Shown here piece after piece: positions 6,824 to 32,096 of a stretch of DNA of 40,821 nucleotides (position 1 is the first letter of the stretch; each line of letters begins with the position of its first letter). This DNA is from a virus. The stretch spans positions 1-40,821 of IMG/VR virus record IMGVR_UViG_3300045016_000109, one strand, 5' to 3'. The notes beneath the pieces were generated by a model, which was not told the origin of the DNA, made no database searches, and saw nothing but the letters and a program-made list of their open reading frames with translations. The translations under genes and the position numbers were made by a program.

Positions 6824-6832
6824 GATGTTCTC

Positions 6833-9800: not shown

Positions 9801-11773
9801 CCCATGACAGTCGAGTTCTTCAGGAGTGAATAGCTGTTGTACTGGCTCTGTCCCTGTCCAGCGGAGTTGTTCACCTGGACGATCCGCACTACGTCGGATG
9901 CGCTCCCGGATAGGCCAGTCACTGGCGTGCCGTCAATGACCTTCGCATAGGACCCGCCGGTGAACACGAGGTTGTCCTGTCCATCTTCCGCGCCCTTCAC
10001 GACCCGAGCATCCGTCACGCGGACGAGCACGCGGCTCGCAAGCGTCGCCGTGTAGTTGTACGCGTATTTCACGTAATAGGTGGCGCCGGGATTAGGATCA
10101 TTGCCGCCGAGAGTAGCGAAATTGATGGTGTCGCCGGTCTTCACAAAATCCACACCCAGATGGTAATCGAACTTCCCGTCGTGCGCGTTGGCCTGGCTGT
10201 TGGACGCACCGATGATCGAGGCCACATTCACATTGGCCAGATTGTCGATATGGGTGCTCCCGTTGTGGGTCACAGCCTCGACTATCGTGACCCGATAGAC
10301 CATATCCGAAATGGCCTTGATGAATTTCTCGTTGCACGGATAGATGCGCTGCCCGCCGGGATTCGTGATCCCGACCGTGAGACCCAATTCGGTGTAACCG
10401 TCGCCGCTCACCGCTTCAATCGCCAGTGTCTTCCCCGGTGCGGCCTGAATGGAAATCGCTGCGCCCACTGCAACACAGTTGACGAGATCGCCTCCCTCTG
10501 CGGACGGGTAAGCATTCACCGCTGCCTCGATGTCTGAGCACACGGTCGCCGCGGTTTTGTTGTTCCCGGAAAACGTGACGGTGTGGCTATTTCCCAAGCC
10601 CACTTTGAGTTTCAGTTTCAGCCCGTTAACGTCGAAATCATTGTCGCTCACCGTGCCAAGCACAATCCCGCCAGGAGCGAGGAAATCGCCGGTCGTGGAA
10701 CCGTTCCGGTGATCCGTTCCCAGAGCGCGACTGATGTCCGCATAGCGTCGGTCATACGTTTCGACCGGCCAGCCTTCAACATAGGCCTTGCCAGGCCCGA
10801 TCCAGATACGCTGTTTCGTCGCATCGGTCGGATGATCGTCCGCCTTCATCTGGAACGGTCGCACGCAGAACGAGCCTGCGTGGTCGTGCATTTGTGTGGC
10901 GAGAGTGCGCTGAAGAACCGTTCGTTCCGGATCGAGCGTTTTCGTTTTCGGCACGCCGTCGATAAATTCCTGAATATCGACCTGTGCAGGATCGTTCAGC
11001 GTCCACTCGACCTGAACAATGAGACGATCCATTCCCGGCTGGCAATACTGCCACGCCACATTTTCGTCGGGGTCTCGCAAAACCACGTCACCCAGGTGGG
11101 TTACGACGTCAGGCGTGATTTTCAGGCCGACACGCTCCGTGCCGGTCCCAGTAATCGTGATCGTCCCTGCAGGCACCGGAATGAAAAACCCCTCCAGGGT
11201 GATGCGCCCCTCTGAGAACTGCCACTGATTGCTCCCCAAAGACTTGGGGTTGCACCCCTCAATCACGTCACCGTCTTTGTGGATGGTCCGCGCAAAGTTC
11301 CTGATCGCCTTGAATATGAGTGCCTGTAAATCGGTTATCTCCGAACGCTGCGCGAGTCGCCCGGCATGAGGAGCCAGCATCAGCCATTGCGGGCGGCCGG
11401 ACGTGTTCGTCTCCGGCGGATGCACCGCGGTTGTGGCCGCGCCCGTGTCCCAATGGGCTTCGACAGCGGCCGTTACTTCGGCCAGCAAATTGTAGGTGGT
11501 GCCGTTCCATTTGAAATACCGGATATACTGCGCTCCGGGCGGGACAGCATCCACGTCGAGCCGAATACGGTTCAACCCGCTAAGCGTTGCAGGGCCGTTC
11601 GAGCACACAACAACGGCCGACGCGATGGTCTCACCTACCAAGGTCCTGAACGTCGCGCAGTATCGGTACTCCGTGGTTCCAGGAGTGCCGTCCACGGTCG
11701 GTGCAACCATTACCGGTGCGGCCAGATGGTCGAATGCCCTCAGTTTATAGTCGTGTAGTGCGTCTATCAGCAT
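6833..11773 (-). CDS. Giant DUF4815-type baseplate/tail fibre protein with inserted domains
   Basis: This 1646-aa protein has an N-terminal half that matches the pattern of DUF4815 phage proteins: TDLQALIFKAIRNFARTIHKD near residue 147 (location only), HDHAGSFCVRPFQ near 296 and IWIGPGKAYVEGWPV near 323. Residues about 374-475 form one copy of the flagellin-IN-like domain that also occurs in the sheath and decoration proteins. The middle carries helical and beta-rich sections. The C terminus is a beta-rich domain into which an FCCH-like segment (NGFQENAIVTISGVQGN ... NGTWRLKNV) is inserted near residues 1545-1610. It is coupled to the small gene upstream and lies after the propeller fibre. 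It is probably a structural fibre or baseplate-periphery protein. Confidence 0.75.
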   Translation of the reverse strand: MLIDALHDYKLRAFDHLAAPVMVAPTVDGTPGTTEYRYCATFRTLVGETIASAVVVCSNGPATLSGLNRIRLDVDAVPPGAQYIRYFKWNGTTYNLLAEVTAAVEAHWDTGAATTAVHPPETNTSGRPQWLMLAPHAGRLAQRSEITDLQALIFKAIRNFARTIHKDGDVIEGCNPKSLGSNQWQFSEGRITLEGFFIPVPAGTITITGTGTERVGLKITPDVVTHLGDVVLRDPDENVAWQYCQPGMDRLIVQVEWTLNDPAQVDIQEFIDGVPKTKTLDPERTVLQRTLATQMHDHAGSFCVRPFQMKADDHPTDATKQRIWIGPGKAYVEGWPVETYDRRYADISRALGTDHRNGSTTGDFLAPGGIVLGTVSDNDFDVNGLKLKLKVGLGNSHTVTFSGNNKTAATVCSDIEAAVNAYPSAEGGDLVNCVAVGAAISIQAAPGKTLAIEAVSGDGYTELGLTVGITNPGGQRIYPCNEKFIKAISDMVYRVTIVEAVTHNGSTHIDNLANVNVASIIGASNSQANAHDGKFDYHLGVDFVKTGDTINFATLGGNDPNPGATYYVKYAYNYTATLASRVLVRVTDARVVKGAEDGQDNLVFTGGSYAKVIDGTPVTGLSGSASDVVRIVQVNNSAGQGQSQYNSYSLLKNSTVMGHATSQIDWSAAGAQGVVPGGQPTTAATYYVTFEFWMHATEGDFVAAQSYDMYSRIEQAPGIASEYDLRDCVDWRTLGTLPTSGYSPTFDFDFYLGRFDKICIDPQGNFNVIAGTPSKKIEIPAEQTGNLTLSLVAIAPYTYGPQDVTIRSVEPIRITQQGLHELLRRVERLEYWNEQKSLEESVAYGPAATGSRGIFTDALAGFGRSDVAFNKNGIKFTAALDTAERCLRLPAAQTAKRVGASLSESSGIKKVGNSIMLDYQPEVYDQQLKATSKININPDDVVSFASGELSIIPEIDMFQDSTQRPDLNADYDNNLSAVLSQLLPEDFSKVAWNSWESNIPQVAETVNANQNATGEEWSKLWTGFGRIQTEEALGQHFVANSWNVGDIWRSGTQKSLQPDKKIVDLGDRVVDLTMATFMRTKDDDGDPFEIELTAQNLIPNGDYAVEIAGKLVNAVATGSSQQGAAYQGKTTIKANASGAYTGKFVMPGKIPTGTATIKTLYTTNPTLSSALHQFYSSGWRTTKQKTTLGFTSAKIITETVQESLQLFEYVDPLAQTFLVKEANVYVSAIGIFFASKSATIPVTCEIRECLNGYPSRKVLASCTLGPVQVNVSKDGTAETIFTFADVLAYQPEEYCIVLKTNCTDYEVWMAELGKADVVSGEIVMAQPAGGVLFHSPNASTWEAMTRADLKYKIYKSNFENACQIVFDNLTGIEANAFVARVEQFLAPGTAVAWSYSIDGGLSWIPFTAGLNTSLSSVVTQVKIRVDVTSIGGTFRIIDKWGTGILFLLHDMEADAVFNEIQFDDPLQYPDKVQVYLDVDADGFDGTGTRNITVYYTIDDGETWVRLKVPTQYSPIIKTEPYDEYLFETPDEASLSGAANATPIAITSAANGFQENAIVTISGVQGNTAANGTWRLKNVNEPAGTAELVNPTTGANSSGNGAYTSGGTMKLAEFDQCRLRIHLATSNQAQTPKVQNVRLSCIEAAAA
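10349..10654 (-). other. Flagellin-IN-like cassette domain inside the DUF4815 fibre
   Basis: Residues about 374-475 of the 1646-aa fibre read LKLKLKVGLGNSHTVTFSG ... DGYTELGLTVG. This is the same pattern (LKVGxGxxxTxTL, then a helix, then an NDAYxxLGLxxG ending) as the paired domains in the tail sheath and the decoration protein. Confidence 0.65.
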
Positions 11774-11782
11774 GTCAGGCTC

Positions 11783-12304
11783 CTACATAAATTCGATAAC
11801 GAACGCGACTTCCCGCTCCTGTTCGTCACGCGCGAGTGACCAGGCGAGGTGATTCGCCAAATGAGCGAGAATTCCCGTGCTGGTCACGTCTCCGGGGGCG
11901 ATCCACAGATCGTTTTCGTGACCGCTCGCGGGGACGAGGCCGACGCAAATCCCATGCTGCCGGAATGTATCGACGGGCATGGTCGGATTTGAGGCGGGCT
12001 GAAACAGGCCCCGCACGTAGCAGAATCGTGCAATCTCCGTGTAGGCGTTCTCGTCTGCTACGAGGTCGTATTGCTGGCCGTTTACCGTAATGTCACCGCC
12101 GGATTCGACCGGTTTCACGAGCGAAACGGTGTGAGGCACGGTGTAGACGAATGCTTCCTCGATTGCGGTCTGGAGCGGGTCCTCTGCTGGCGGTGCTTCC
12201 TCGTTCGGCCACACGGTTGTTCGGCCCAGGCCGACCCATAGAGAAGGCTGGTTCTTGAAATCCAGCGCCCGACGAACACAGTCTGCGTATGGTGTTATGC
12301 TCAT
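11783..12304 (-). CDS. Baseplate/tail-associated protein, unassigned
   Basis: This 173-aa protein is mostly beta-rich and acidic and begins MSITPYADCVRRALDFKNQ. A central segment (YDLVADENAYTEIARFCYVR) and a C-terminal part with VGLVPASGHENDLWIAPGDV suggest a compact structural fold. It is placed between the propeller fibre and the DUF4815 protein, 9 bp before the latter. Equivalent small genes beside DUF4815 proteins in large myoviruses are virion or baseplate parts; membership is inferred from context. No enzymatic motif was seen. Confidence 0.5.
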   Translation of the reverse strand: MSITPYADCVRRALDFKNQPSLWVGLGRTTVWPNEEAPPAEDPLQTAIEEAFVYTVPHTVSLVKPVESGGDITVNGQQYDLVADENAYTEIARFCYVRGLFQPASNPTMPVDTFRQHGICVGLVPASGHENDLWIAPGDVTSTGILAHLANHLAWSLARDEQEREVAFVIEFM

Positions 12305-12314
12305 GGCTCGCCTC

Positions 12315-13985
12315 CTATGCCGCTCGTCCCAACTCAGGGGGCCGCAGTTTCACGAGGTTTGCACCGCTGTGTGGAATCAACCAAACGTGCTCGCCGTCGA
12401 AGACCGCACCTTTGAACGGATACGACCCCTGCCCGTGATAGAAGGCCGTCATCGCACCGGTGGCGGGGTTGAGTTTCAGTATTTTCGTAGAGTTGTATGG
12501 CACGAGCCAGATGCTCACCCCATCGAAAACCCCACCAACAAACGCAGATGAACCGCAGCCGTGAGCGTAGGTCGTCATCCCGCCAGTGGCTGGGTTGATT
12601 TTGATTACACTGGCTGACCCGTAGGGAACCATCCAGATGTTCTCGCCGTCGAACACGCCGCCGGTGAATGCGTTCGCACCGGCGCCGTGAGCATAGGTGG
12701 TCATTCCGCCGGTGGCGGGATCTACCCGTACCAAGTTCGATGATCCAAGCGGGATGAGCCAGATATACGCACCGTCAAACACCGCGCCTTTGAACGCGTA
12801 TGTTGCCTGACCGTGAGCGTAGGTCGTGATGGCTCCGGTCGCGGGATTGAATTTCACCACATTCGTAGCCTGGGCCGGCGCCATCCAGATGTTCTCGCCG
12901 TCGAACACGCCACCGACGAACGCCCACGCACCCTGTCCATGAGCATACGGTGTCATTCCGCCGGTGGCGGGATTCACTTTGAGAATGTTTGCACCATTGT
13001 TCGGAATGAGCCAAACGCTCGTTCCGTCGAAAACAGCCCCGCTGAATGCCCAGTTTGCCTGTCCGTGAGCATAGGTGGTCATTCCGCCGGTGGAGATGTT
13101 CACCTTGATGAGATTCGTGGAGGCATAGGGTGCAAGCCAGAGATTCACTCCGTCGAACACGCCGGATTCAAACGCGCTGGCGACCTGCCCATGTGCATAC
13201 GCCCCCGCTATGGGACACCACAAACTCGTGACGACCGCTGTGCCCGTGGCGTGCAGAGTTCCGGATACGGTCACGGTGGTCGCATTGTTGTCGGTGATCG
13301 GGAGCCACACGCCCGTTGCGGGGCTGCCGCTCGCATAGGAGAATACGTATTGACCTATGAGCGCATCCACAACCCACGTGCCGGCCGAACGAGTGAACAC
13401 CGTATCGCTGGTGCGTGTGCCCGTGATTTCAGACGATTGCGCGACCTTGGAGAATGGCGGCCGCCCTTGCCCCAGGCCGGTGTTTCCTGCTGAAATAGCT
13501 CGTTTCCCACCATGAACGACCTGAATCAGAGGTCTGTTCGGCCCCACGACGAGGGACCTACCTCCAAAATCCCCGCTCACGGCCGCACTCGCGCCTGAGA
13601 TCGCGCCTGTCACGATCAGCGGCCCACAGACGTATTTCCCAGCCACTGCCAACCATCGCGTGTTCCCAGCGTCACCCGTGGCGAGCACATCCAAATGGTT
13701 GACCGTGTAACCCGATCCCGTCGCCTCATAGCGGTAGAAAGATTCCGTTTCCACCACGTAGCAGCGGTAATTGTCCACGCCTTTCGCAGCCTCGGCAGCC
13801 GCTACAGTGGCGTAGACCTCCTGGTCGTATGGCAGGGAGTTCCATGCCGTCGCTCCGTCTCCGACCTTGCGTCGCCCGGTGTCGGATTCATAGCCCTCTT
13901 CGCCTGCCCTCAAGATTGTATTGCTTGCAGCCCACGCTGCTGCTGTGCCCCGGCGCAACCGCCATCGTGCTAATTCCTCTGCCAT
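12315..13985 (-). CDS. Tail fibre with Mtd-like N terminus and seven-repeat beta-propeller
   Basis: In this 556-aa protein, residues about 8-53 (RWRLRRGTAAAWAASNTI ... RKVGDGATAWNSLPY) match the N-terminal fibre motif seen in Mtd-type and many other phage fibres. A linker follows, and then residues about 263-556 contain seven tandem 42-residue units of the form YAHGQxxxAFxGGVFDGxxIWLxPxxxxNxxKxNPATGGMTT. Seven units of this length and pattern suggest a seven-bladed beta-propeller, a fold used for glycan or protein binding. The last unit ends at the C terminus. It lies directly after the gpI-type gene, the usual place for receptor-binding fibres. No reverse transcriptase or template repeat for a diversity-generating element was noticed in the window. 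Confidence 0.8.
   Translation of the reverse strand: MAEELARWRLRRGTAAAWAASNTILRAGEEGYESDTGRRKVGDGATAWNSLPYDQEVYATVAAAEAAKGVDNYRCYVVETESFYRYEATGSGYTVNHLDVLATGDAGNTRWLAVAGKYVCGPLIVTGAISGASAAVSGDFGGRSLVVGPNRPLIQVVHGGKRAISAGNTGLGQGRPPFSKVAQSSEITGTRTSDTVFTRSAGTWVVDALIGQYVFSYASGSPATGVWLPITDNNATTVTVSGTLHATGTAVVTSLWCPIAGAYAHGQVASAFESGVFDGVNLWLAPYASTNLIKVNISTGGMTTYAHGQANWAFSGAVFDGTSVWLIPNNGANILKVNPATGGMTPYAHGQGAWAFVGGVFDGENIWMAPAQATNVVKFNPATGAITTYAHGQATYAFKGAVFDGAYIWLIPLGSSNLVRVDPATGGMTTYAHGAGANAFTGGVFDGENIWMVPYGSASVIKINPATGGMTTYAHGCGSSAFVGGVFDGVSIWLVPYNSTKILKLNPATGAMTAFYHGQGSYPFKGAVFDGEHVWLIPHSGANLVKLRPPELGRAA
12318..13199 (-). repeat. Seven tandem 126-bp coding repeats (propeller blades)
   Basis: Seven consecutive 126-bp units within the fibre gene encode 42-residue blades. 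They are similar but not identical in DNA. Recurring tracts include GTGAGCATAGGTGGTCATTC and CCGTCGAACACGCC (plus-strand reading). Such arrays can gain or lose units by recombination, yet the count is exactly seven. Confidence 0.8.
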
Positions 13986-14017
13986 TGCTATATCTCCTCA
14001 GAACGGGGTTGTTTCCG

Positions 14018-16153
14018 TCAAACCATACGCACCCGTCGAATGAACGCATCATGCGCTCGTTGGTCGCCCCCAATAGGATCAAACGCGGTGATCCCCTCGT
14101 TATACAGCCACGCATGTTTGCGGTTGCGAAACGCAGCCAGAGCCACAGGGTGCAGGTCGTCCAGTTTTTGAAATGGATAGCCCGCTCCGTGGCTGTCGAT
14201 GTTCGAGCGCACCCAGCCTGACGTCTCCGTCGCGTCCATCCACAGCGTCATCGGCGCACCGAGCCGCAGTTGCGGGAACGTGCTTTGCATTTGAGCCAGG
14301 CTGTCGTCATGGCTGAACATGCGGTCGATGAAGTCATCGCGGTTGGCGAACACGTATCCGATCGGCATTTCGCCACCATCAATCATGAGTCCGGGTAGAC
14401 TCAGCTCTGCTGCCCGCGTCAAAAGCCCGACATGGAACCAGTAATATGTCCACCACGGATCATATAAGACGGGCATTATCATCCAGATCGTGGCTGCCGG
14501 GAATGTTGCCGCAATCACGTCTGCGATACCGGCCCCTATCCATTGACACTGCTGCTGCACCTGAGCCTGCGTGAGCCCGGTGTCGCGGGCGACCGCATAG
14601 ACAGCGTGGTTGCCGCCGTTACCCAAATACATTTCAGGATCGAATAAAATCCCAGGCCAGCCTTGAACTACGCATAGTTCCAATGCTGTAGTGAGGTCGG
14701 AGTACAATTGTGTGACTTTGCCTGCTGCATCGTACAAATCAATGATGCCGGTTGCTTCATCGACCACCTTGCACAGCCTGAAATAGGGCCAGAGTTGTTT
14801 TTGTGTTGTGAGTTGCGCAGCCCATTCATACCCCACGTTCCATGTGTGCGTTACGCCATCGGATCCCTGGAATGTCATGCCGTCGAATAACGATCTATCA
14901 AGTGCAATGCAGCTCGCCTGGGATTTCGGGAGGTCATAGCCCCGCAGGTCGTTGCGGGCATCAACATACAAATAGTAACCTCTCTGTTCCTGTTCGTTTG
15001 CCTGTTCTCCCGCGCCGCCGTTTAGCTCCGTTTCGTATTCCTGAACAGGCCCTCCACCGTCGTATTCATGCAGCCATGCTGCGGTCCCAGCCGTTCCTCC
15101 GTCGAGGAGCCTCGGGACAAACGACATTGGATCGCCGCCCTGGAATCGCCGGGAGAGAAACTGCGTTGTGGCTTCTCCTCCGTCAAATCTCCGGGCATGA
15201 AACGACGATGGGCCGCCGCCGTCGAATTTGTGATCCCACAGGACCGTATTCGGACCGCCGCCATCGAATATCAGCGGGATGCCGTCTGGAATGTCGGAAC
15301 CACCGCCGTCGAATTCATGATCCCACGCTGCCGTTGCCGCATCCCCGCCGTCGAACAGAAGCGATCCGAGGGTATCGCTGGCCGATTCTCCCTCGCACGC
15401 ATCAACACCAGCGTCTGAGCTGCTAGCTGCAGCCGTCTGTGATCCTCGTTGTCCCGGCCGCGTCCACCACAACGATCCGTTCCATTCACCGCGACCCCAC
15501 CCATACGCGAATGCGTTCGTCCCGGCGCACAGAGTAATGCCAGCGGATTCGCCCGCGACCCTCGATACTCCCGCCTCACCAGACCGGATACGGAAATACC
15601 ACTGCGTGCCCGCCATGACTGTTTCAATAAGGTCCTCTTTCAGAGCGGTCAGGTCGATCCCCTGGTCCACGCACAGGATGAAATCGCCTTCATGGAAGTA
15701 ATCCGCGGACTCGAAATGGCAATCTTCCTGGCTCCAATGCCCCTGTTTGCTCCACACGAGCAGTTTGGACGCCATGTCAATCAGCTCGAAATTACCGTTG
15801 CCGTGTTCAGCGACCAGGTCCGCGATGGATGCGACGGTCCCCTTGTACGACCAGCGACGGATTGCATTTCTGATGCGTCGGTTCCACAGATGCGTCTTGT
15901 CAGTGCGCCATATGTGGCCTACGAGTGGAGCCAAAAGGTGCAGGTACTTGTCAGGAATAAGGTCCACATTGCGTAGGCTGAACAGTTCACCGATCTTGTC
16001 GTGAACGCGGTCGTACTCCCAATCAATCACGCCGAAAAAGCGTTCGAGCATCTTTAGGTCACGATCCAATCGCAACCAGATATCAGGGACTCGGTCTATG
16101 AGGCGTTGTCGCGACAAGTCGGTCCTACGTGCGCCGAGAGCCTCACGGCTCAC
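14018..16153 (-). CDS. gpI-type baseplate protein fused to FDGG repeats and a TIM-barrel-like domain
   Basis: In this 711-aa protein, residues 1 to about 200 look like a P2 gpI-type tail protein, the wedge/fibre connector that follows baseplate J (VPDIWLRLDRDLKMLERFF; RNVDLIPDKYLHLLAPLVGH, location about 62-81). Residues about 266-381 hold nine [FLY][DNQ]GG motifs spaced 13-15 residues apart. Residues about 390-711 look like an alpha/beta barrel with GILFDPEMYLG near 501 and LMIDGGEMPIGY near 589, carrying acidic residues at strand ends as in glycoside hydrolases. The start is GTG at 16153, just after the gpJ stop. Typical gpI proteins are about 180-200 residues, so about 500 residues have been added. 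Catalysis is not proven. Confidence 0.7.
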   Translation of the reverse strand: MSREALGARRTDLSRQRLIDRVPDIWLRLDRDLKMLERFFGVIDWEYDRVHDKIGELFSLRNVDLIPDKYLHLLAPLVGHIWRTDKTHLWNRRIRNAIRRWSYKGTVASIADLVAEHGNGNFELIDMASKLLVWSKQGHWSQEDCHFESADYFHEGDFILCVDQGIDLTALKEDLIETVMAGTQWYFRIRSGEAGVSRVAGESAGITLCAGTNAFAYGWGRGEWNGSLWWTRPGQRGSQTAAASSSDAGVDACEGESASDTLGSLLFDGGDAATAAWDHEFDGGGSDIPDGIPLIFDGGGPNTVLWDHKFDGGGPSSFHARRFDGGEATTQFLSRRFQGGDPMSFVPRLLDGGTAGTAAWLHEYDGGGPVQEYETELNGGAGEQANEQEQRGYYLYVDARNDLRGYDLPKSQASCIALDRSLFDGMTFQGSDGVTHTWNVGYEWAAQLTTQKQLWPYFRLCKVVDEATGIIDLYDAAGKVTQLYSDLTTALELCVVQGWPGILFDPEMYLGNGGNHAVYAVARDTGLTQAQVQQQCQWIGAGIADVIAATFPAATIWMIMPVLYDPWWTYYWFHVGLLTRAAELSLPGLMIDGGEMPIGYVFANRDDFIDRMFSHDDSLAQMQSTFPQLRLGAPMTLWMDATETSGWVRSNIDSHGAGYPFQKLDDLHPVALAAFRNRKHAWLYNEGITAFDPIGGDQRAHDAFIRRVRMV
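15011..15358 (-). repeat. Nine FDGG-type coding repeats
   Basis: Within the gpI fusion, motifs start at about residues 267, 281, 296, 310, 323, 337, 350, 364 and 377. Intervening residues often include W(D/L)HE or RR before the next FDGG. The near-regular 14-residue period suggests a small beta-solenoid or a repetitive linker. Confidence 0.75.
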
Positions 16154-16155
16154 GG

Positions 16156-17586
16156 CTAGACGGGGGTTATCGTAATCGTCCCCGCTGTGAGGATTTCTCC
16201 GATCCCCGCGGAGACACTGTCAATCGGGCTTGAGAACTCCACCCATGACACACCGGTCACAGCCGACACCGTTTGGTGAAGGGTTGTATAACTCAAGGTG
16301 CCCTGGATGTCCATGTGTTCGACTGTGAATAGATTCTCGATTGCTGCTTGAACAGCCGCAGCTACTGTTGATCCTACATTGCCCGGCGTGATGCCAATCC
16401 TGCAAGTCACGGCCACAGAAACCGGCGTCGCATCTGACAGGATATAGCGTTCCCGCCAATTTCCGAAATGCCCCCATGATTCCAACTGTGCGAACACCGT
16501 CTCGCGGAGTTCGTTCGACATGGCGCCTCCACCTTCTGGTACTGCGAAGAGGACCATGTACATGTGCGGCCATTGATCACGCCAATTCCGGTCAACGGCT
16601 TGGCAGTGTTTGATGCCAGCCACGCTTTCTATGAGGGCTTCGTAATCACCGGCAACTACTCCTCTGCGCTGTGTTCGCACCACTCGCGGTATGCGGCGCC
16701 GAAAGTCCTCAATGCCTTCCGCGTAAGCTCCTCCGGTTGCGGAGACCGTGTTCGTGCAACTAAGGATTTCCGTGAAGGCTGGCGGAACCACGGTGATAGT
16801 CCCGCTGCCGCAGTTCCCAATCGGCCCATCTGTACGAATGAATGTCACGGTCATGGTTTCGGGAGGAAGTTGCATCCCCTGCGTACCGTCGCCCAGAACA
16901 AGAAAAACCGTGTCTACTTCGTCGTTGATCGGTTCCGGTTCCGCGAAGAGTTCAAGGATGAAATGCCTATCGGTCAATTTGCTGCGCCAGAATCCATCTG
17001 CTTCGCTCCATCCCATCTCGATGGGCGACCCGTGTTGAACCGTGATGGTCCTTGCAGCCACGTTCACACCCAGGTTGTACATGGCTCGGTTCGTCAGCGT
17101 CGAAATCGTAAAGTCTTCCGGATCCAGGGTGTAAGTGACGAGTTCGCCCTGTGTGGCATTCACATCTATAGAGGCCTGCCCTGCAAGGAGCGTCACGTCA
17201 ACATCGGTGAGGAAGATCACACCATCCGCCCGGGTGAAGCTCGAGTACTTCGGGACGGTGATCGCACCGGTAACGCCTTCGAGTCTCGATATTCTGAGTG
17301 TGGTCCTTGCAGGAGATGCCAGTTTTGGCAGGATGTCAACCGTTTTTGCGATGTCAATGAGTGACTGTTTGAACCGAGCGGTCTCGATAAACCCTTCAGC
17401 GAAGGCCTCGTCAATGTAAAAATTGAGCTTGTCTACGGTATCCGCGACAAGACGAAGGATGGAGATGCCGGCATCGGAATGATTCAGGTCCGTCAGTTCC
17501 GGGACATCCTGCCGCATCCGAGCAATGAGAGCCTCGAACCGTGCAGTGAAATCCCGTCCTGAAAAATTGTATTCGAAATCTGCCAT
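16156..17586 (-). CDS. Baseplate J / gp6-like wedge protein
   Basis: This 476-aa protein is the main baseplate wedge component, equivalent to P2 gpJ and T4 gp6, which forms the ring that changes shape on contraction. Visible hallmarks are the N-terminal TDLNHSDAGISILRLVADT segment (compare the 'D.G..LlelfA...d' of the family), the EAFAEGFIETARFKQSL helix, and the C-terminal YEALIESVAGIKHCQAVDRN and CRIGITPGNVGSTV regions. The start ATG overlaps the gp25 stop as TGATG. The order gp25, gpJ, gpI is the canonical wedge order. Confidence 0.88.
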   Translation of the reverse strand: MADFEYNFSGRDFTARFEALIARMRQDVPELTDLNHSDAGISILRLVADTVDKLNFYIDEAFAEGFIETARFKQSLIDIAKTVDILPKLASPARTTLRISRLEGVTGAITVPKYSSFTRADGVIFLTDVDVTLLAGQASIDVNATQGELVTYTLDPEDFTISTLTNRAMYNLGVNVAARTITVQHGSPIEMGWSEADGFWRSKLTDRHFILELFAEPEPINDEVDTVFLVLGDGTQGMQLPPETMTVTFIRTDGPIGNCGSGTITVVPPAFTEILSCTNTVSATGGAYAEGIEDFRRRIPRVVRTQRRGVVAGDYEALIESVAGIKHCQAVDRNWRDQWPHMYMVLFAVPEGGGAMSNELRETVFAQLESWGHFGNWRERYILSDATPVSVAVTCRIGITPGNVGSTVAAAVQAAIENLFTVEHMDIQGTLSYTTLHQTVSAVTGVSWVEFSSPIDSVSAGIGEILTAGTITITPV

Positions 17587-18470: not shown

Positions 18471-18471
18471 G

Positions 18472-23415: not shown

Positions 23416-23420
23416 TCGCC

Positions 23421-23648: not shown

Positions 23649-23666
23649 CCCCCCGGATAGAAAAAA
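23594..23666 (-). promoter_or_regulatory. -1 ribosomal frameshift site and possible stimulatory stem
   Basis: Reading the minus strand, T_TTT_TTC lies at 23666-23660 and G_GGG_GGA at 23654-23648, both in the zero frame. The stop TAG (23647-23645) immediately follows the second. Downstream, ATAGCCG (ending at the slip site) can pair with CGGCTAT at 23600-23594, giving a 7-bp stem with a 41-nt loop. A small CCGC/GCGG hairpin lies inside it. Confidence 0.75.
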
Positions 23667-24364: not shown

Positions 24365-24371
24365 GAATCAC

Positions 24372-24851: not shown

Positions 24852-24890
24852 GTGTTACTCCTTGAATGAGCCCGAAGGCTATGGGCTCAC

Positions 24891-27155
24891 TTATCGACGC
24901 ACCCATCCGGGCAATTCTTTCATTTCCAGGTAGTTCTCGAACGCGACGCCGGTTCTCATGACTCCAAGCTCGAATTCCAGGTAGTAGATCGTCTTAGTGG
25001 GCTGGATGAGCGCCCGGCAATGGTAGATGCCCCGGTCGATGTCGAGGCCGGTGTTGATGACTGCATTGCGAAGCTCCCCACCGTCAAAAAACGCGTCCTT
25101 GTCGCATTGGAGCGCGTAATCGTAGATACCGTAGCGGTTCTTCCAATCCTCGAACGCCGGTTGCAGCGCACGATGGATTTCCCGCCATGTTACGGGATGG
25201 TTGGGTTGAAAAATGAAGGTCCGGAGAAGCGGCATCAAAACCCTGTACATCATGGTAATGAACCGCATGACGTTCAATTCCCGCAGAGCCGACGCCACAC
25301 GAAGAGTCGTGCGCTGCTCCCAGAACATTGCGCCTTCGATGCCGGGCAAGTGCGAAATCATCAGGTAGTTGATCCCGTACTCAGCGAAGAGGTCCGCATA
25401 CCCACCGCCTCTGAAGCCCTGGATGTTGAAGTCCACACCTTCGCAGAGCGAAACGGTGCCTCGCCGCGGCCCGACCGGAGCATAGAAGTAATCGTACTCG
25501 TTGTCCGTGCGACAGATGCAGGCCGCAAGATGCCCGAGGCAGGACACATACTCGCGCGAGTCAGTCAGATCGTTGTAAACCAAGGGCCTACCGAACCACA
25601 GCGAGAACCTATGACTGTTGAAAGCGGGGTGAGACCAAGGCGCATTGCCCATTCGCCAATCGACGGTTTCCTCCGGAAACATGCCCCACGGGACCTGTCC
25701 ATAGGCGAGGAGGTCGCCTCGGCCTTCGCAGTAGGTGATGAGAGCCTGAAAGACCGTAACCGACGTAGTGCCTGGGATCATGATGTCCATGGCCATGTAC
25801 GGCGCATCGTCGGCCGCGTACATTCCAGTCTGAGATTTCTGATGTCCGATCCAGTCCGCATCGCAGAATCCCGCCAAGCCGTTGTCGCCACCGGCCATGA
25901 GCGTGCCCCACGCATTCACCGCGGGCATATCCGACGGCGCAGCGTTGTTGGATTCAAGATCCTCCACGGTCACGAGTGAAGATCGCTCGTTGATGAACGT
26001 GGGAGCATACCGCTTGCTGGTCGGATCCATGGAGAGGTCGCCGTAGTATTCGGTGAGATCTCCCTGCTCGGAATAGATGATCTTCACGTTGAAGAGGTTG
26101 ACCGGATCCAAAGCCGATTCTGAGATCTGCACAGCAAGGTTGTCACCCCACACCCCCGGGTCTTTGGCCGTGAATTTGAGGGTGTCGGTTGCCTCTCCGT
26201 CCGCGCCGGTATGCACGTCGTTGTCAAGGCCAAGTCTTGCTTCGCATGTCGAACTTGATTTGACCTGGAGGCTTGCCTGCGGCCCGGTCGCAGTGCTCGT
26301 GATTCGGAGCGCGCCGTTGTAGACGGTCACACTCGCGCCAGTCAATGCCGCCAATTGTGTCATGACTTGCGAAGCGGTCAGAGTGAATGGATTGCTGCCG
26401 TCACCTGCGAGCGTGAAAGTTTGGTCCGCGCCGCCGTTGACGGAAATGACCAGCTTGTCGGTGCCGGGGTCAGCAGCATAGGTCGCCTCGTTAAGGCCAA
26501 GCACAGAGTAAGCATCATTGGTGATCAGTTTGATTTGGATGCCATCCGTTACGGTGTTGGCTGCGATCTGCACCCGGTTGTTGTTCGCTGATGCGGTCAG
26601 GCCACTGGTCTGCGCGTTAATCTGGTTGCAGACTTGTGTGACTGTCTGATTGCTACCTACCAGTGTCACTTCCTGGTCTGCACCGCTTCCCACTTTGATG
26701 AGGAGCTTGTCGGAAGCGCCGGTCACAAAGGTGTAAGGTGCGATTTCCGACCCGACAGCCCGGCCGCTCTGTGCAATGGATAGAAGCGCATATGGTCCCG
26801 CAACTGCCTGGATTGCCGCGTGAGTAGCGATGTCGCCCCGGTCTTTCAGGGTGACATGGGAAGAGAGCGCGGTCAGGCTCGTGCGGTCAGTGATGTCCGT
26901 ATAGTGGGCTGTCCTGATGAGAATCAGGCGCGCACCCTGCCTGAGCGCCATTTCACACACAAGCGGATCCTGAGTGTAGTCCACCTTCTTGCCGAAGATC
27001 CTGGTGTACTCTTCCACGGAAGAAATGATCTTCGGCTTTGCCATGGGTCCGCGTTCCGCCTGAATCACCATGATGACGTATCCGCGGACAATCTCGTCCA
27101 CGAACATGGAGAGGTCTTGAATGGTCCAGATAACTCGTGCTGCGCCAAGGGTCAT
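24891..27155 (-). CDS. Tail sheath protein with two inserted IN-like domains
   Basis: This 754-aa protein is the contractile sheath subunit. The start is the ATG at 27155, with GGAGG eight bases before it and directly after the stop of the previous gene. The N-terminal MAKPKIISSVEEYTRIFGK and RLILIRTAHYTD, the KDPGVWGDNLAVQIS segment near residue 330 and the C-terminal domain (INTGLDIDRGIYHCRALIQP; LPGWVRR) are typical of phage sheaths. Residues about 140-225 and 228-320 are two tandem flagellin-IN-like domains placed before the conserved A.dPG.WGN stretch, where sheaths tolerate surface insertions. They would be exposed on the outside of the tail. The conserved N- and C-terminal arms are intact. 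Confidence 0.9.
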   Translation of the reverse strand: MTLGAARVIWTIQDLSMFVDEIVRGYVIMVIQAERGPMAKPKIISSVEEYTRIFGKKVDYTQDPLVCEMALRQGARLILIRTAHYTDITDRTSLTALSSHVTLKDRGDIATHAAIQAVAGPYALLSIAQSGRAVGSEIAPYTFVTGASDKLLIKVGSGADQEVTLVGSNQTVTQVCNQINAQTSGLTASANNNRVQIAANTVTDGIQIKLITNDAYSVLGLNEATYAADPGTDKLVISVNGGADQTFTLAGDGSNPFTLTASQVMTQLAALTGASVTVYNGALRITSTATGPQASLQVKSSSTCEARLGLDNDVHTGADGEATDTLKFTAKDPGVWGDNLAVQISESALDPVNLFNVKIIYSEQGDLTEYYGDLSMDPTSKRYAPTFINERSSLVTVEDLESNNAAPSDMPAVNAWGTLMAGGDNGLAGFCDADWIGHQKSQTGMYAADDAPYMAMDIMIPGTTSVTVFQALITYCEGRGDLLAYGQVPWGMFPEETVDWRMGNAPWSHPAFNSHRFSLWFGRPLVYNDLTDSREYVSCLGHLAACICRTDNEYDYFYAPVGPRRGTVSLCEGVDFNIQGFRGGGYADLFAEYGINYLMISHLPGIEGAMFWEQRTTLRVASALRELNVMRFITMMYRVLMPLLRTFIFQPNHPVTWREIHRALQPAFEDWKNRYGIYDYALQCDKDAFFDGGELRNAVINTGLDIDRGIYHCRALIQPTKTIYYLEFELGVMRTGVAFENYLEMKELPGWVRR
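26196..26738 (-). other. Tandem flagellin-IN-like domains in the tail sheath
   Basis: The first unit (residues about 140-225) contains LLIKVGSGADQEVTLVG and ends ITNDAYSVLGLNEATY. The second (about 228-320) contains LVISVNGGADQTFTLAG and ends in CEARLGLDNDV. Both match the cassette domain of the decoration protein and the DUF4815 fibre. Confidence 0.7.
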
Positions 27156-27156
27156 A

Positions 27157-27489
27157 TTAGTTGCCTCCTTCCGCTGCCGCGTCGATGATGCGGATCGAGC
27201 CCTGAGCCTCAAGGCGCTTCACATAGGGCGGCAAGAGCTTCTTGGGAATGATGTCCGACTTGTTGTGCCCCCCGCCACGCGTGTATGGTCCCACTCGGAG
27301 GTTGCGACCGTCAACGAGCGTGATGTCGAGCGGAGCCGAAGTTTTGTTGAGGACGTACACTTCGCCCGGAACCGGCCCTCGCGGGGGTGCTTCCGCAATC
27401 GGTTCGGGGCTCGGGGTATCCTCGACCGGCTGGGAGGTAGATCCTGCCAAGTCTTCCAAAGTCAGGTCGCCTGTCGTTCTTTTCGCCAT
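27157..27489 (-). CDS. Small head-tail region protein upstream of the sheath
   Basis: This 110-aa protein has a Pro-rich first third (SQPVEDTPSPEPIAEAPPRG, location only) and a compact beta-rich remainder (VYVLNKTSAPLDITLVDGR; LRVGPYTRGGGHNKSDI). Its stop lies two bases before the sheath start. Similar short genes between tail terminator and sheath are found in several large myoviruses, but no family is recognised here. It could be a neck or virion accessory protein. Confidence 0.5.
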   Translation of the reverse strand: MAKRTTGDLTLEDLAGSTSQPVEDTPSPEPIAEAPPRGPVPGEVYVLNKTSAPLDITLVDGRNLRVGPYTRGGGHNKSDIIPKKLLPPYVKRLEAQGSIRIIDAAAEGGN

Positions 27490-27506
27490 TGAAAACCCCC
27501 GTGAGG

Positions 27507-28118
27507 TTATTGAAACACGTCATAGTTCGTGATTTCGGAGTCCAGTTCGGGCGAGGAAATAGAGCTATGCTCCTCCTCTTCGAGTCGGTCTATCCACACA
27601 CCTTCAACCCACAACGGCACAATCTTGTGAAAGAGAGGCTTGTCTGGTTCGTCGTCGTCCTGGGGAGTGCCTTTGGTGAAAAGCGGCCACGATTCCTTGC
27701 CGGGTTCGCCAATTTTGGGCATGTAGCCGATGGGGAACGCCTGAGCGAGCTTCAAGAGCATGGCTTTTGCAACCGCTGGGTCCGTGGCATACACGTGGAG
27801 GTCGTACCCAATGTCATAGGGAGTTGGATACGGCTTCTTGGTAAACTGCATCGGTCCCGTGATGCTTTTTGGGCCGCCCATGTTCCCAGGCGCGGGAAAT
27901 TCCACGGTTTCCTGTTCCTCGCTTGGGACAAAAATTTCGCAATTGGGCTTGGCTCTGCCCTTGTCCTCCCGGTAATAGAGGAACTGAATTGCGTAGAATG
28001 GGTAGTCACTTGCGCCTTTGTCCCGATCCGGTTCGTAGGGCAGAACGCGCATCGGGTTTCCCTCGAAGAGAACCTTGCTCAATCGCGAGTTGATATGTGA
28101 TTCCACAAAAGGGAACAT
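27507..28118 (-). CDS. Tail terminator-like protein
   Basis: This 203-aa protein begins in a TGATG overlap with the preceding neck gene. The N terminus (RVLPYEPDRDKGASDYPFYA) and the strand/helix segment YDIGYDLHVYATDPAVAKAM fit tail terminators (gpU/gp15-like), which cap the tube and bind the head. The position, after the HK97-gp10-like gene and before the sheath, is the terminator position. Assignment is by order and overall pattern rather than a diagnostic motif. Confidence 0.5.
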   Translation of the reverse strand: MFPFVESHINSRLSKVLFEGNPMRVLPYEPDRDKGASDYPFYAIQFLYYREDKGRAKPNCEIFVPSEEQETVEFPAPGNMGGPKSITGPMQFTKKPYPTPYDIGYDLHVYATDPAVAKAMLLKLAQAFPIGYMPKIGEPGKESWPLFTKGTPQDDDEPDKPLFHKIVPLWVEGVWIDRLEEEEHSSISSPELDSEITNYDVFQ

Positions 28119-28768
28119 CAGAATGGTGCCTCTTCGAGACCGCTAATAGGCAGCGCCTTTGCTAGTGCTGCCGAGAAAAAGCTGACAACGGTCGGAGCCA
28201 CGGCTAAATGGGTCGCACGGACAAAAGGCCGGGCAGGACGGAACTCCTTGGAGAACTTCGTCTTCCAAGCCCCCCCCTTGCCTTTTGATCGCTTTGCGCT
28301 CCCGGAACCGTGCTCGAGCCAGTAAGCCACTTGAGCTAGGTATTGCGTGTCGTAGGTCGAGTTCCTCGCACTCGTGGGTGGGCCTTTGTACTTCCGTGCG
28401 TTCTTCGGGACCCTGCTGCGGTAGATCATTTCCCGCAGGCTTCCGAAGTAGCGCATCCCCTCATGCCAGCCGACACTGCATCGAATGAGTTCCGGGCTGA
28501 ATGAGTTCCGCTCATGCGAGATGGAATTCGCGAGCAAATGCGTTCGGAACAGGGGGCGTGTGTCGTAGCCATGCGTGGATTTCCATTGTTGGTAATCAGG
28601 TTCATTGGGCGACCACATCCCCTCGGCCATCATCTTCCGCATGGTCTCGACAATGTGCTTGCGAGCAAGGAGGTCCGCACGGCCAAGTTGGGACATGAGC
28701 TTCTTGGGGAAACCCGCCCAACTCTTTTTGTAGGCCTCAAGACCTCTCATTTCTGGCACGATCATCAT
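28118..28768 (-). CDS. HK97 gp10-like neck / tail completion protein
   Basis: This 216-aa protein starts at the ATG at 28768, which overlaps the upstream stop as TGATG; the frame also allows a GTG at 28780. The N-terminal amphipathic helices (YKKSWAGFPKKLMSQLGRAD; LARKHIVETMRKMM) followed by a strand-rich half with GPPTSARNSTYDTQYLAQVA and RPARPFVRATHL resemble gp10-type neck proteins, which often end in a 'R.R.f..P.' and terminal-helix pattern. It would join the connector to the tail. The family assignment is tentative. Confidence 0.55.
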   Translation of the reverse strand: MMIVPEMRGLEAYKKSWAGFPKKLMSQLGRADLLARKHIVETMRKMMAEGMWSPNEPDYQQWKSTHGYDTRPLFRTHLLANSISHERNSFSPELIRCSVGWHEGMRYFGSLREMIYRSRVPKNARKYKGPPTSARNSTYDTQYLAQVAYWLEHGSGSAKRSKGKGGAWKTKFSKEFRPARPFVRATHLAVAPTVVSFFSAALAKALPISGLEEAPF

Positions 28769-29202
28769 CAGCCTTGACACCCCAGATCGAAATCCACTCT
28801 CGAACCCGGCCGGGTATGTTCCCGTTCCACGGCCTTGCGGAGCACTACCTGAATCACGTTGTCAGTGTCCGCAGAGGATGTGGTCTGCACGGCTATGGGT
28901 TCTCCTGTTCGCAGGTCCCACCGAACACCGTCGATCTTGAAGTACATGGACGACGTGATGCGGGGTATGTCTTGCGCCAGGAGGTAGCTGCGGAGAAAGA
29001 AAATGATCCGCTCCTCCTGGTCCTCAGTCCCGCCGATGAAGACTTCGAGTCCTTCTGCTCGTGCTTCGGTCATGGTCCAGCCGATGGTGAGAAGGTCTTT
29101 TTCGACCCCTTCTTCGGTGACGAGAACCACGAGCTTGCCAGCGAACATATCGAAGTCCTTTTTGATGATCCGGTTGATGCTGTTCTTGAGGTTTGTCCTC
29201 AT
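28768..29202 (-). CDS. Head-tail connector / head-closure-region protein
   Basis: This 144-aa protein (MRTNLKNSINRIIKKDFD) has a central segment with RIIFFLRSYLLAQDIPRITS and ends VDFDLGCQG. Its length, beta content and position (second or third gene after the capsid) agree with head-closure or stopper proteins. No diagnostic motif is seen. Its stop is shared with the next gene's start. Confidence 0.45.
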   Translation of the reverse strand: MRTNLKNSINRIIKKDFDMFAGKLVVLVTEEGVEKDLLTIGWTMTEARAEGLEVFIGGTEDQEERIIFFLRSYLLAQDIPRITSSMYFKIDGVRWDLRTGEPIAVQTTSSADTDNVIQVVLRKAVEREHTRPGSRVDFDLGCQG

Positions 29203-29205
29203 GGA

Positions 29206-29604
29206 TCACCAACTCACCACGCCGACACCCGGCCAGGCCGTTTGCTTCAGTTGCGCTTCCGTGGCAACAGTCCCGAGCCCGCGGCCTGCGGTGGTCTTCA
29301 TGTTGTCGATTGCCTTCTGTAGAGCTTTGAAGAATGTCGCCCGGTCAGGGAGTTCCACTTGCTGCGGCCCGGCCCGGTGCTTTTGCACCTCGTCGGTATA
29401 GATCAGGGCGATACGCGGCAAGAGAGCTTCCAGGGTGATAGCAGCGCAGTACACGGCCTGCTTGTCGGTAAGGTCGGCCTGCACCCATCCCTGTAGAGCA
29501 ATTTGTGAAGCGATCACGGCCGGCAGGTCTCCACGGAGCGTTCCGTCGATTTCCAGGACCGGCTTAATGTGAATCTCCACAAGTTCTTGAACGTCAATCG
29601 CCAT
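29206..29604 (-). CDS. Head-tail connector adaptor candidate
   Basis: This 132-aa, strongly helical protein (LVEIHIKPVLEIDGTLRGDL; KALQKAIDNMKTTAGRGL) fits the size and helical character of the adaptor proteins that dock under the portal (gp6/gp15-like). It starts with ATG at 29604, three bases after the previous stop, and ends four bases before the next gene. Function is inferred from order. Confidence 0.45.
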   Translation of the reverse strand: MAIDVQELVEIHIKPVLEIDGTLRGDLPAVIASQIALQGWVQADLTDKQAVYCAAITLEALLPRIALIYTDEVQKHRAGPQQVELPDRATFFKALQKAIDNMKTTAGRGLGTVATEAQLKQTAWPGVGVVSW

Positions 29605-29607
29605 GGA

Positions 29608-29931
29608 CTATCTCTTTTTGCCCCTCTGCGGCCTCCGGGGAGGAACCGCGGGCTTCTGCACTTCGATTGCTTCTTCCGATAGTGGAGGGGGAGACGAAGG
29701 ATCGAGCTGGGGGGGGGAGACGGACTCATCCCTCGCCACGCCCTCCTGGGGTGAAGCAACGCTGGGTCTTGCAACGTCGTCCTCGATTACGAGACCGCCC
29801 GCGTTGAGCCATTCGCGCGTGAGCTTCCCCACACGGCTACCGAGATTCACGACCGCGGCCTTCACCACTCTGAGACCGGTTTCGGAGTCGTAAAACTGTC
29901 CGGTCGGATCCTTGAGTTTCACTCGTCTCAT
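29608..29931 (-). CDS. Small proline-rich head-region protein
   Basis: This 107-aa protein begins MRRVKLKDPTGQFYDSETGL and becomes Pro/Ser-rich, ending in the basic run PPRRPQRGKKR. The N-terminal half may be a small beta fold with a DPTGQFYDSETG turn; the C-terminal part is probably disordered. It is the first gene after the major capsid protein. It may be a head-decoration or DNA-contacting virion protein. No family is recognised. Confidence 0.45.
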   Translation of the reverse strand: MRRVKLKDPTGQFYDSETGLRVVKAAVVNLGSRVGKLTREWLNAGGLVIEDDVARPSVASPQEGVARDESVSPPQLDPSSPPPLSEEAIEVQKPAVPPRRPQRGKKR

Positions 29932-29990
29932 AGTTGCGCCTCCGTCAGTTGGGGTGAGGCCAGAGCCTCACGGCTCTCGCGTGGACGCGA

Positions 29991-31100
29991 CTATGCAACC
30001 AGCGGGTTCATGTAAGTCGGGAAGCCGTTCTGCGCGAACGCCAGCGACTTGTCGATGATGATCCGGGCCTTCCGGTCGATGGTCAGGAAGCCGTCCATGA
30101 CCGATGCAGCCGTGCCATTGATTTGGCGCATGATGATTCGCTCAGACTCCACTAGAAGACCGCGGAACGTCATGTGGATCATGGCCGCCCGCTTGTCGTA
30201 GAGCATGAGCTGATTGTCGGTCAACTCGGTGCCTCCGATCAGGTGCGGCATGGAAGTCGGGATGATCCGGTTGCGGCTGTCGAGGGTTACGGCTGCTGGG
30301 CCGGTCCCGCCCACGGTCGGCTTGAATTCGGTCAGAGCCAGAACCGTGTTCGCCATATTCTCGCTCGTGGCCATGTTGTTCCAGTTCATGCCGATCCTGC
30401 GGGCACGAACCCACGGCCTGGTGAAGTCCGCAAAGGCCAGTGTCCCAGCAGAGGCTACACCGATGATCGCGGCAGAGTCGGCCCCACCCGCCTGATCGCC
30501 GTTGACCATGGTGGTGAGGGCTTTTTTGAAGACCTTGCCCTGCAATTCCGCACCAACTCTTTGGAGCCAGTACTGAAGGACCGGCAGTGCCACGGACAAG
30601 ACCAATTCGTCGGTGAGCTTAATGGCCACGCCCGATTTGCTCAACCGAACGGTCTTGAAGCCCCATTCGATCGCGCTCTCAGGGATGGTCTCACCCTCTG
30701 CGATGTCCTGCATTTCGGCCTCGTTGTACTGGATCCACGGTGCGGTCACATCGAGGCTGCTCGCGTTTTCGCTCCCCGCCACAAGGTCAAGATACGAAAC
30801 ATCCGCTACCATCCCCATGAGGATGAACTGGCGAATGAGTTCGGGCGCGAGGTACTTGACGTCTCCACTGAGAGATACGAGGTTTCCGATGGTGACGATG
30901 TTGGGATCCATGCCCAAGTCACAGAAGATGTCTTCCATGGTCCAGGGCTTACCCGCAGCATTGGTCAAGCCCAACTGCTCGTTTATGAAAGAAATCAGGT
31001 CGATCTCCCTCCCAGCCGCTCCGTCGTTGCCGAGATATGCCTGGAAGGGCTCATGAATCCTCTCCCGATAGGAGTTGAACAATCCGAGTTCACCGCTCAT
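29991..31100 (-). CDS. Major capsid protein (HK97-fold type)
   Basis: This 369-aa protein is probably the icosahedral shell subunit. Evidence is its position after scaffold/protease and decoration genes, its length, and the fold-like sequence: an acidic/hydrophobic N-terminal arm, a central AEGETIPESAIEWGFKTVRL segment (E-loop and spine region of HK97-like capsids, 'G.e.....') followed by SKSGVAIKLTDELVLSVALP, and a C-terminal half (TRPWVRARRIGMNWNNMATS; MPHLIGGTELTDNQLMLYD) typical of A-domain strands. A Shine-Dalgarno tract (GAGAAGGAGA) precedes the start. N-terminal processing by the upstream protease cannot be read from the sequence. Confidence 0.82.
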   Translation of the reverse strand: MSGELGLFNSYRERIHEPFQAYLGNDGAAGREIDLISFINEQLGLTNAAGKPWTMEDIFCDLGMDPNIVTIGNLVSLSGDVKYLAPELIRQFILMGMVADVSYLDLVAGSENASSLDVTAPWIQYNEAEMQDIAEGETIPESAIEWGFKTVRLSKSGVAIKLTDELVLSVALPVLQYWLQRVGAELQGKVFKKALTTMVNGDQAGGADSAAIIGVASAGTLAFADFTRPWVRARRIGMNWNNMATSENMANTVLALTEFKPTVGGTGPAAVTLDSRNRIIPTSMPHLIGGTELTDNQLMLYDKRAAMIHMTFRGLLVESERIIMRQINGTAASVMDGFLTIDRKARIIIDKSLAFAQNGFPTYMNPLVA

Positions 31101-31124
31101 TTTCGTGTTGTCTCCTTCTCAGAG

Positions 31125-32096
31125 TTATTTTTCGAGCGTTTCGACGGTCATGGGGGCGCTATATACACCCACCACGAGGCCGATGGTGTCGTATGCGTCG
31201 TTGGCAACCGCCTCGACTTCGAGGTCCGTTGCAGGATCATCGAGGGTGAAAACGACGTATCCGTTGACTCCCGACGCCGTGAACCCGGTCGCCGTAAGGT
31301 TGATTTTGTTCGCGATATCATCTGCCGTCTGGTCGTTTCCGGTCGTCAGGTCAAAAGTCTGACTCGCGCCGCTACCGACCTTCAGTTTCAGCGCATCGTT
31401 GGTGTTGTTCGCGATGTCAAAGGGTCCCAGGACGCCCCCTGTCACCACGAGCGGTAGTGTGCCCTTAATGACAAGACCGGCTATCGAGGCGGGATCATGA
31501 GAACTCGCCCCGACGTACGTCCCGACCGTGAAGCCGAGGAGCGTGTACGCGTCATTGGTGACTGTCCCAATGATAATGTTCACGTTGTCCTGAGTGGCTG
31601 TGAGTTTGAGTTTCCCGCTCGATTTGGAAGCGACGAACCCCGTTGCGGCTGCGAAGTCCGCAACGATTTGGTCCATGGTTCTGGCTGCACCGGGCGTGAG
31701 GGTGAATGTTTGGGCTCCACCACTGCCGATAGTGACCTTGAATTTGTCATTCGAGCCTTCAATCACTTCGAACGTGGCGTCGTCTTCAGTGCCGGTGACG
31801 GATGCGATCTGCTGTTTCGTGTAAGGGATAACCTTCATATCGGCATCCCACACGAACGGCCCCACAGCAGTCGCAGCAGCGGCAATGCGGTCGTCCCGCC
31901 GTTCGCGAAAACGGGTTTCAACGGTGCAGGACAGCGCAAGCGCTAGATGTACCGCCACATTGCCGACGATCCCGACTTCACCCGCCGCATCGAGAGCCGC
32001 GACCGTGAGATCGTCGGAAATCTTTACCGGCTGGCCGACAACGACACCCGCGGGGCAGATGAAGCCGACAGCGAGGGTGTTGATCTTCTGCTTCAT
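31125..32096 (-). CDS. Decoration-type protein with two inserted IN-like domains
   Basis: In this 323-aa protein, residues 1 to about 95 are clearly homologous to the neighbouring 124-aa protein (both contain CTVETRFRE.RDDR and AVGPFV). Insertions follow: a first domain at about residues 107-197 (FKVTIGSGGAQTFTLTPGA ... NDAYTLLGFTVGTY) and, after SHDPASIAGLVI shared by both proteins, a second at about 226-318 (LKLKVGSGASQTFDLTTGN ... NDAYDTIGLVVGVY), before the shared ending VETLE. So it is the small protein with the domain inserted twice. A head-decoration role is likely from its place beside the capsid gene; such domains would project outward. Confidence 0.72.
   Translation of the reverse strand: MKQKINTLAVGFICPAGVVVGQPVKISDDLTVAALDAAGEVGIVGNVAVHLALALSCTVETRFRERRDDRIAAAATAVGPFVWDADMKVIPYTKQQIASVTGTEDDATFEVIEGSNDKFKVTIGSGGAQTFTLTPGAARTMDQIVADFAAATGFVASKSSGKLKLTATQDNVNIIIGTVTNDAYTLLGFTVGTYVGASSHDPASIAGLVIKGTLPLVVTGGVLGPFDIANNTNDALKLKVGSGASQTFDLTTGNDQTADDIANKINLTATGFTASGVNGYVVFTLDDPATDLEVEAVANDAYDTIGLVVGVYSAPMTVETLEK
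31143..31778 (-). other. Two flagellin-IN-like domains inserted in the decoration protein
   Basis: The units lie at about 31778-31506 and 31421-31143. Each starts with an LKVGSG.xQTF.L strand pair, continues through a helix (TADDIANKINLTATGF in the second) and ends NDAY..(I/L)G(L/F).VG.Y. The domain-free paralogue at 32106-32480 shows the insertion points directly. Confidence 0.75.

Follow-up and report, generated by a model that had tools for sequence, protein, structure and literature searches.

The record IMGVR_UViG_3300045016_000109 in IMG/VR belongs to an uncultured virus of bacteria, apparently a contractile-tailed phage. The whole stretch analyzed, referred to here as the window, is 40.8 kb long (40,821 nt), and it encodes one domain of about 80 residues five times in three unrelated virion proteins, namely, twice in the capsid decoration protein, twice in the tail sheath, and once in a DUF4815 fibre, all on the minus strand. 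Computation demonstrates that these domains are homologous, inserted, variable in number, nested, and FliD-like. In the most far-reaching reading, an IN domain of the flagellar-cap type may serve this contractile-tailed lineage as a universal cassette that nests in itself and is inserted on capsid, neck, sheath, and fibre, in which each lead segment is closed by one body and which moves between genes, and the outcome would be a length-tunable adhesive coat over the whole virion. We give this reading, taken in full, a probability of about 0.45. In the more limited explanation that we prefer, an IN-type cassette inserted in loops projects from the virion and gives weak adhesion; its structural and evolutionary part is highly probable, its adhesion part is tentative, and as a whole it is probably right.

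The five copies were tested by leaving each one out in turn, that is, a hidden Markov model (HMM) built from any four copies was searched against the 564 six-frame open reading frames (ORFs) of the window. The E-values for the copy left out were 1e-16 for D1 and 1e-17 for D2 in the decoration protein, 4e-16 for S1 and 4e-6 for S2 in the sheath, and 2e-7 for F1 in the fibre, and no sixth copy was found at a significant E-value in these searches. Smith-Waterman z-scores against 1000 shuffles were 8 to 19 in eight of the ten copy pairs; D2/S2 (4.3) and S2/F1 (3.8) were weak. Upstream of every copy there is a lead strand, TGxxxGPFxIxxG, and the full unit is lead plus body. A preliminary description of this DNA had placed five copies in the decoration protein, the sheath, and the fibre, and all five were recovered close to where it put them; similarity across the three proteins is significant because an HMM from four copies finds the fifth. 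The full unit is longer than the about 85-100 residues given there, since the upstream lead strand is also needed. The bodies and the complete cassettes are as follows.

31515-31754, minus strand: body of D1, decoration protein
31161-31403, minus strand: body of D2, decoration protein
26478-26714, minus strand: body of S1, sheath
26211-26465, minus strand: body of S2, sheath
10364-10618, minus strand: body of F1, fibre
31506..31808, minus strand: cassette D1, lead and body; leave-one-out HMM E 1e-16; missing in the paralogue
31158..31454, minus strand: cassette D2, lead and body, at a second insertion site; HMM E 1e-17; missing in the paralogue
26187..26816, minus strand: sheath cassette in the order lead A1, lead A2, body S1, body S2; from HMM, AlphaFold2, and Foldseek
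10364..10672, minus strand: fibre cassette F1, lead GIVLGTVSDNDFDVNG and body; leave-one-out HMM E 2e-7

The cassettes are acidic (isoelectric point 4.1-4.4) and rich in threonine plus serine (16-22%), and scans of the window proteins with Pfam and PHROGs left the domain unnamed. This low-complexity flavour and the weak S2-F1 pair could suggest that Thr/Gly-rich beta segments resemble each other by chance or by composition and are not homologous. The probability of this is practically nil because the leave-one-out E-values already refute it, and the motif is consistent over dozens of relatives, forms position-specific clades (sheath S2, fibre), and has a confident fold. No significant similarity was found among the five copies at the DNA level and, therefore, the duplication is old; recent gene conversion as the source of the window copies is ruled out by the dissimilar DNA.

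That the copies are insertions is seen from sites where they are missing, both in the window and in its relatives, the latter comprising 95 loci from scans of viral contigs. In the case of the decoration protein the comparison can be made between two neighbouring genes.

31125..32096, minus strand: capsid decoration (cement-type) protein with cassettes D1 and D2, 323 aa; its gene lies immediately upstream of that for the major capsid protein (MCP)
32106..32480, minus strand: decoration paralogue with no cassette, 124 aa; similar to the longer decoration protein in BLASTP (E 4e-30)

The short paralogue is directly upstream of the decoration gene and its product is 58% identical to the longer protein over the N-terminal residues 1-95. 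Both have ASHDPASIAGLVI and the VETLE end, and the short one is without either cassette. Therefore, D1 and D2 occupy two separate loops of one cement-like core, and both empty sites are thus present within the same genome. This adjacent pair of a plain and a cassette-bearing decoration gene is conserved in many relatives. The core may weakly be assigned to the Phage_cement_2 family (PF09956) from profile scores: the short paralogue of the window scored 15.9 bits (E 0.017) where the cut-off is 24 bits, and one of ten scanned, that of L009, passed it (25.0 bits, E 2.5e-5). A tblastn search of the deposited phage collection with the decoration proteins gave no match. Among relatives the decoration protein has 0, 1, 2, 3, 4, 5, or 6 copies, the contig of the three-copy protein ending inside the gene, and in L005, L008, and L013 the decoration units are split in two parts.

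The sheath and the fibre also have relatives with the site empty.

24891..27212, minus strand: tail sheath with double cassette; phrog_23 tail sheath, E 9.9e-39
6833..11773, minus strand: DUF4815 tail fibre/adsorption protein, 1646 aa; PF16075, E 4e-77

The sheath insertion point is after the DRG strand and before the WGD motif: sheath relatives of about 520 residues have nothing of the insert between the strand ending in ...VTLKDRG and the DTLKFTAKDPGVWGD motif. Cassette-free sheaths occur among L049-L095. Sheaths of relatives have no copy (434-630-residue types), two copies (most), or three (some 856-889-residue types), and among the matches listed from the deposited phage collection only the sheath core was matched. 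The sheath ORF as listed begins at a TTG codon; relatives start with MTLGAARV or a near match in the alignment, so that translation probably begins at the ATG near 27155 (MTLGAARVI). Separately, sheaths of 619-630 aa (L071:9953-11809, L064, L095, and L055) have a different insert of about 100 aa at the cassette site. A STADEIVDAVN stretch made it look IN-like by eye; hhalign gave nothing above shuffles, and this insert was not counted. The sheath gene at L008:14700-16822 is in two overlapping ORFs of different frames, which is either a frameshift or an assembly error. The fibre of the window is homologous to adsorption-associated tail proteins of Herelleviridae. Among these, the DUF4815 proteins of three cultured phages, Troll, EalM132, and EF24C, have no cassette where F1 stands in the alignment. 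Related fibres have one cassette each. The 98-kb relative L096 has two adjacent DUF4815-type fibre paralogues, at 3562-8649 and 8894-13000, with one cassette in each.

Arrays with several copies are built mostly as n leads followed by n bodies: two then two in the sheath, three then three in L006, L007, and L009, and five then five in L014. L005, L008, and L013 have three hairpins and then three C-terminal parts. When an HMM of the lead was searched upstream of 70 arrays it gave 103 matches versus 2.6 in shuffles, and the number of leads equalled the number of bodies exactly in 55 of the 70. Most of the mismatches were arrays in which a GP[FY] lead can be made out by eye although its score was low, or arrays that were cut by the grouping rule. 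In L022 the order lead-lead-body, lead-body, lead-body, body can, in our reading of the sequence, be taken as a balanced string of brackets. Complete units with their own lead were found within the body of another copy in the sheath of L027 (between the S2 hairpin and the helix), in the sheath of L030 (in S1), and in the decoration protein of L046, and at the level of sequence this is direct proof of insertion inside a copy. In L026-L029 the inserted unit and S1 of the same proteins cluster together (100/92), which points to copying within the gene.

The fold was predicted by AlphaFold2 from an alignment of 21 rows and was restricted to the sheath insert because the full-length sheath model was poor (predicted local distance difference test score, pLDDT, 38). 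The insert model has a pLDDT of 96.1 and a predicted template modelling (TM) score of 0.80, with a helix between the first hairpin and the later strands. In a Foldseek search of the PDB, Helicobacter pylori FliD came first (E 1.5e-4, probability 1.00), followed by the sheath of Vibrio phage XM1 (4.4e-4), Vibrio cholerae flagellins, several FliD D2-D3 structures, and the sheath of phage E217 (5.1e-3). Matches in the Foldseek viral library were baseplate-J-like and sheath proteins of uncultured phages. Normalized by query length, TM-scores were modest (about 0.3-0.35), a result of one or both domains aligning in a different relative orientation. The fold did not match the immunoglobulin beta-sandwich, antibody and titin matches in Foldseek being of low probability. 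Of 32 related records, 8 have a PF07196 (Flagellin_IN) match above the cut-off (best E 2.9e-9), and the four records with cassette-free sheaths have no match. The decoration protein of L007 scored 37 bits where the curated cut-off is 22.7 bits. The resemblance to the flagellin IN motif pointed out in the preliminary description is thus supported by Foldseek, in which FliD and flagellins lead, and by PF07196 in the relatives, with the window copies below threshold. On the predicted model the assignment of the sheath insert to the FliD/flagellin-type fold is strong; the case for common descent with flagellar proteins is made by the Pfam hits of the relatives together with structure.

Since the closest solved folds are FliD and the sheathed Vibrio flagellins, it could be asked if virions attach to the flagellum of the host, or to the flagellar cap, through contacts between such domains, all the more because the authors on XM1 proposed acquisition from a flagellated host (PMC10457771). 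We consider this very unlikely because D2 and D3 of FliD can be dispensed with, or exchanged, in the capping of filaments (PMC8533109), and similarity of fold is no evidence of co-binding.

The relatives also show that the cassette is not confined to the three proteins of the window. It is carried by a head-tail adaptor Ad1/DnaT_2 protein in L037 and L038 (phrog_477 E 5.8e-14, PF20557 E 1.5e-9) and by a protein of 300 residues just upstream of the sheath in L042 and L046. The earlier statement that the host proteins are unrelated is therefore borne out, with at least two neck-region carriers added by the relatives, and the modular spread that had been suggested gains support from three natural empty sites, from copy-number variation, and from nested complete units. 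In most of the longer related contigs sheath and fibre copies occur together. In a tree of the copies, which has few columns and only rough support, the fibre copies are one clade (100/95) and so are 24 sheath second-position copies (100/99), while the decoration copies are mixed; from this the cassettes of sheath and fibre seem to have been acquired long ago and retained, and the decoration arrays appear to turn over. In four phages the site-B copies of the sheath cluster with one decoration copy (99/91), and the neck-region copies cluster near sheath S1; these groupings hint at movement between genes.

Such a history also bears on neutral accumulation, a live rival, in which a domain tolerated in loops is kept because its removal is not selected and its folding must persist. 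Variable copy number, tandem and nested duplications, dispensability in relatives, and copies in proteins with different jobs all agree with it. It is nevertheless unlikely: all clade members examined that have any sheath cassette have the pair, and the fibre copies are one clade, which suggests retention by selection, and about 200 extra residues on a sheath protein present in many copies are costly.

In close pairs of relatives the cassettes are under purifying selection, with the ratio of nonsynonymous to synonymous substitution rates (dN/dS) well below 1. In most close pairs with measurable differences the cassette changes faster than the sheath core (dN 0.06 versus 0.01 in L035/L037 and 0.23 versus 0.11 in L027/L029; equal at 0.04 in L038/L040). 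This pattern, along with acidity, would suit exposed accessory modules and argues against decay and against a strong receptor arms race. The other live rival is that the cassettes are structural cement, which would stabilize the virion by lateral contacts among sheath, capsid, and neck subunits and would have no ligand. Strong purifying selection agrees with cement, the decoration protein is cement-like, copies are present in neck-region proteins as well, and additional domains of sheaths have been proposed to cement the tail (PMC9230969). We still hold cementing to be somewhat unlikely, since a decoration copy number of 0-6 with a cassette-free paralogue alongside is hard to square with a fixed lattice contact, the cassettes mostly diverge faster than the cores, and the copy in the fibre requires no lattice contact.

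In the more limited explanation, the unit is an IN-type domain of the FliD/flagellin kind, composed of a lead segment, a beta-beta-alpha-beta-beta-beta body, and a short helix, that is inserted as a cassette into loops of virion proteins. Its ends would be close together, and it could fit any loop, including a loop of another copy, with the host fold undisturbed. If the ends are close and the cassette is loop-insertable in this way then every copy should project outward from capsid, sheath, or fibre. We infer outward display from the position of the XM1 insertion domain on the sheath (PMC10457771) and from additional domains in other sheaths, which lie away from the tube (PMC9230969). In the last and weakest step, many low-affinity copies may make weak, multivalent, reversible contact with polymers of the cell surface or matrix before the fibres engage. 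A shared adhesive role is plausible from surface position and from analogy with Ig-like (immunoglobulin-like) domains and with FliD, of which the Pseudomonas aeruginosa protein has been linked to mucin adhesion, as cited in PMC8533109.

Several results weigh against this explanation. Neither a ligand pocket nor a conserved surface patch was identified, and purifying selection is not what would be seen in a receptor-binding domain that is under strong diversifying pressure. Only cassette-free decoration proteins were seen in L019-L021 and, therefore, the capsid copies are dispensable. As for the flagellar relationship, the window's own copies are below the 22.7-bit cut-off of PF07196, with no match at E<=1 in whole window proteins, and hhalign against Escherichia coli FliD gave E 0.26, no better than shuffled controls. 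Finally, a 45-bp tandem repeat (3.5 copies) in the decoration array at L014:4357-4514 has lead strands only, so leads can multiply separately from bodies, under a parity constraint.

The minus strand of the window has genes for terminase, portal, maturation protease, the two decoration paralogues, the MCP (29991-31100, the downstream neighbour of the cassette-bearing decoration gene), neck, sheath, tube, tape measure, baseplate wedge, and the DUF4815 fibre. Downstream of the fibre gene, 2113-6222 (minus strand) encodes a protein of 1369 aa without a Pfam or PHROG match, which is possibly another large tail or receptor protein. A DNA methyltransferase-like gene is at 39101-40267 on the plus strand, opposite to all structural genes examined. 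A scan of the genome collection with the sheath alignment found no relative, and there is therefore no host or prophage link for the window virus.

The nearest known case is the insertion domain of the XM1 sheath, gp6 (PDB 7kh1), which is likewise a FliD-like domain in a contractile sheath at nearly the same point of the chain, as read from chain position rather than from superposition. An hmmsearch of 7kh1 with the cassette profile matched residues 123-182 (E 1.9e-4). The FliD-like insert of XM1 has been described and called unique to that phage (PMC10457771). As reported, XM1 has one copy and in the sheath only, whereas the sheath of the window has two leads and two bodies, and the domain recurs in the decoration protein and the fibre and, among relatives, in proteins of the neck region. 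Thus, a FliD-like sheath insert was already known, and what is new is the spread over several proteins and the self-nesting. In Pseudomonas phage E217, domain A of the sheath gp31 (PDB 8fvg) is another Foldseek match (E 5.1e-3), one that does not show which part of the chain is aligned; this extra domain is missing from R2 pyocin, and its authors compare it with T4 and use no word beginning with 'flagell' (PMC10329688). A search for 'flagellin hook IN' with 'phage' found no paper in open-access full text, subscription papers being outside the search. FliD D2-D3, flagellin outer domains, and PF07196 have the same fold by Foldseek, and D3 of FliD is a loop insertion in D2 (PMC8533109), the same nesting logic as in the cassettes. 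Unlike FliD and flagellin, the cassettes have no helical D0/D1 filament domains and are borne on virions, and the window copies are below the Pfam cut-off. Promiscuous Ig-like domains of phages (Fraser et al. 2006, as cited in PMC9230969; Hoc, as treated in PMC10385173) are likewise accessory surface domains on unrelated virion proteins, with variable copy number and a proposed weak binding of glycans. They are mainly appended or arrayed in line, whereas the cassettes have an IN-type fold and are loop-inserted and self-nested.

Promiscuous surface domains of phages have been seen mainly as Ig-like, and here a second fold, of the flagellar cap/flagellin type, spans capsid, neck, sheath, and fibre; the 'unique' sheath insert of XM1 is one instance of this wider cassette. 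Beside the filled sites there are natural empty ones, in one case within a single genome, which makes function directly testable by deletion. From the self-nesting it can be read how multidomain surface proteins grow as one insertion is placed inside another, as in FliD and flagellin. For the virus, the cassette is a rarely noticed way to coat its surface, one that may serve for sticking weakly to cells.

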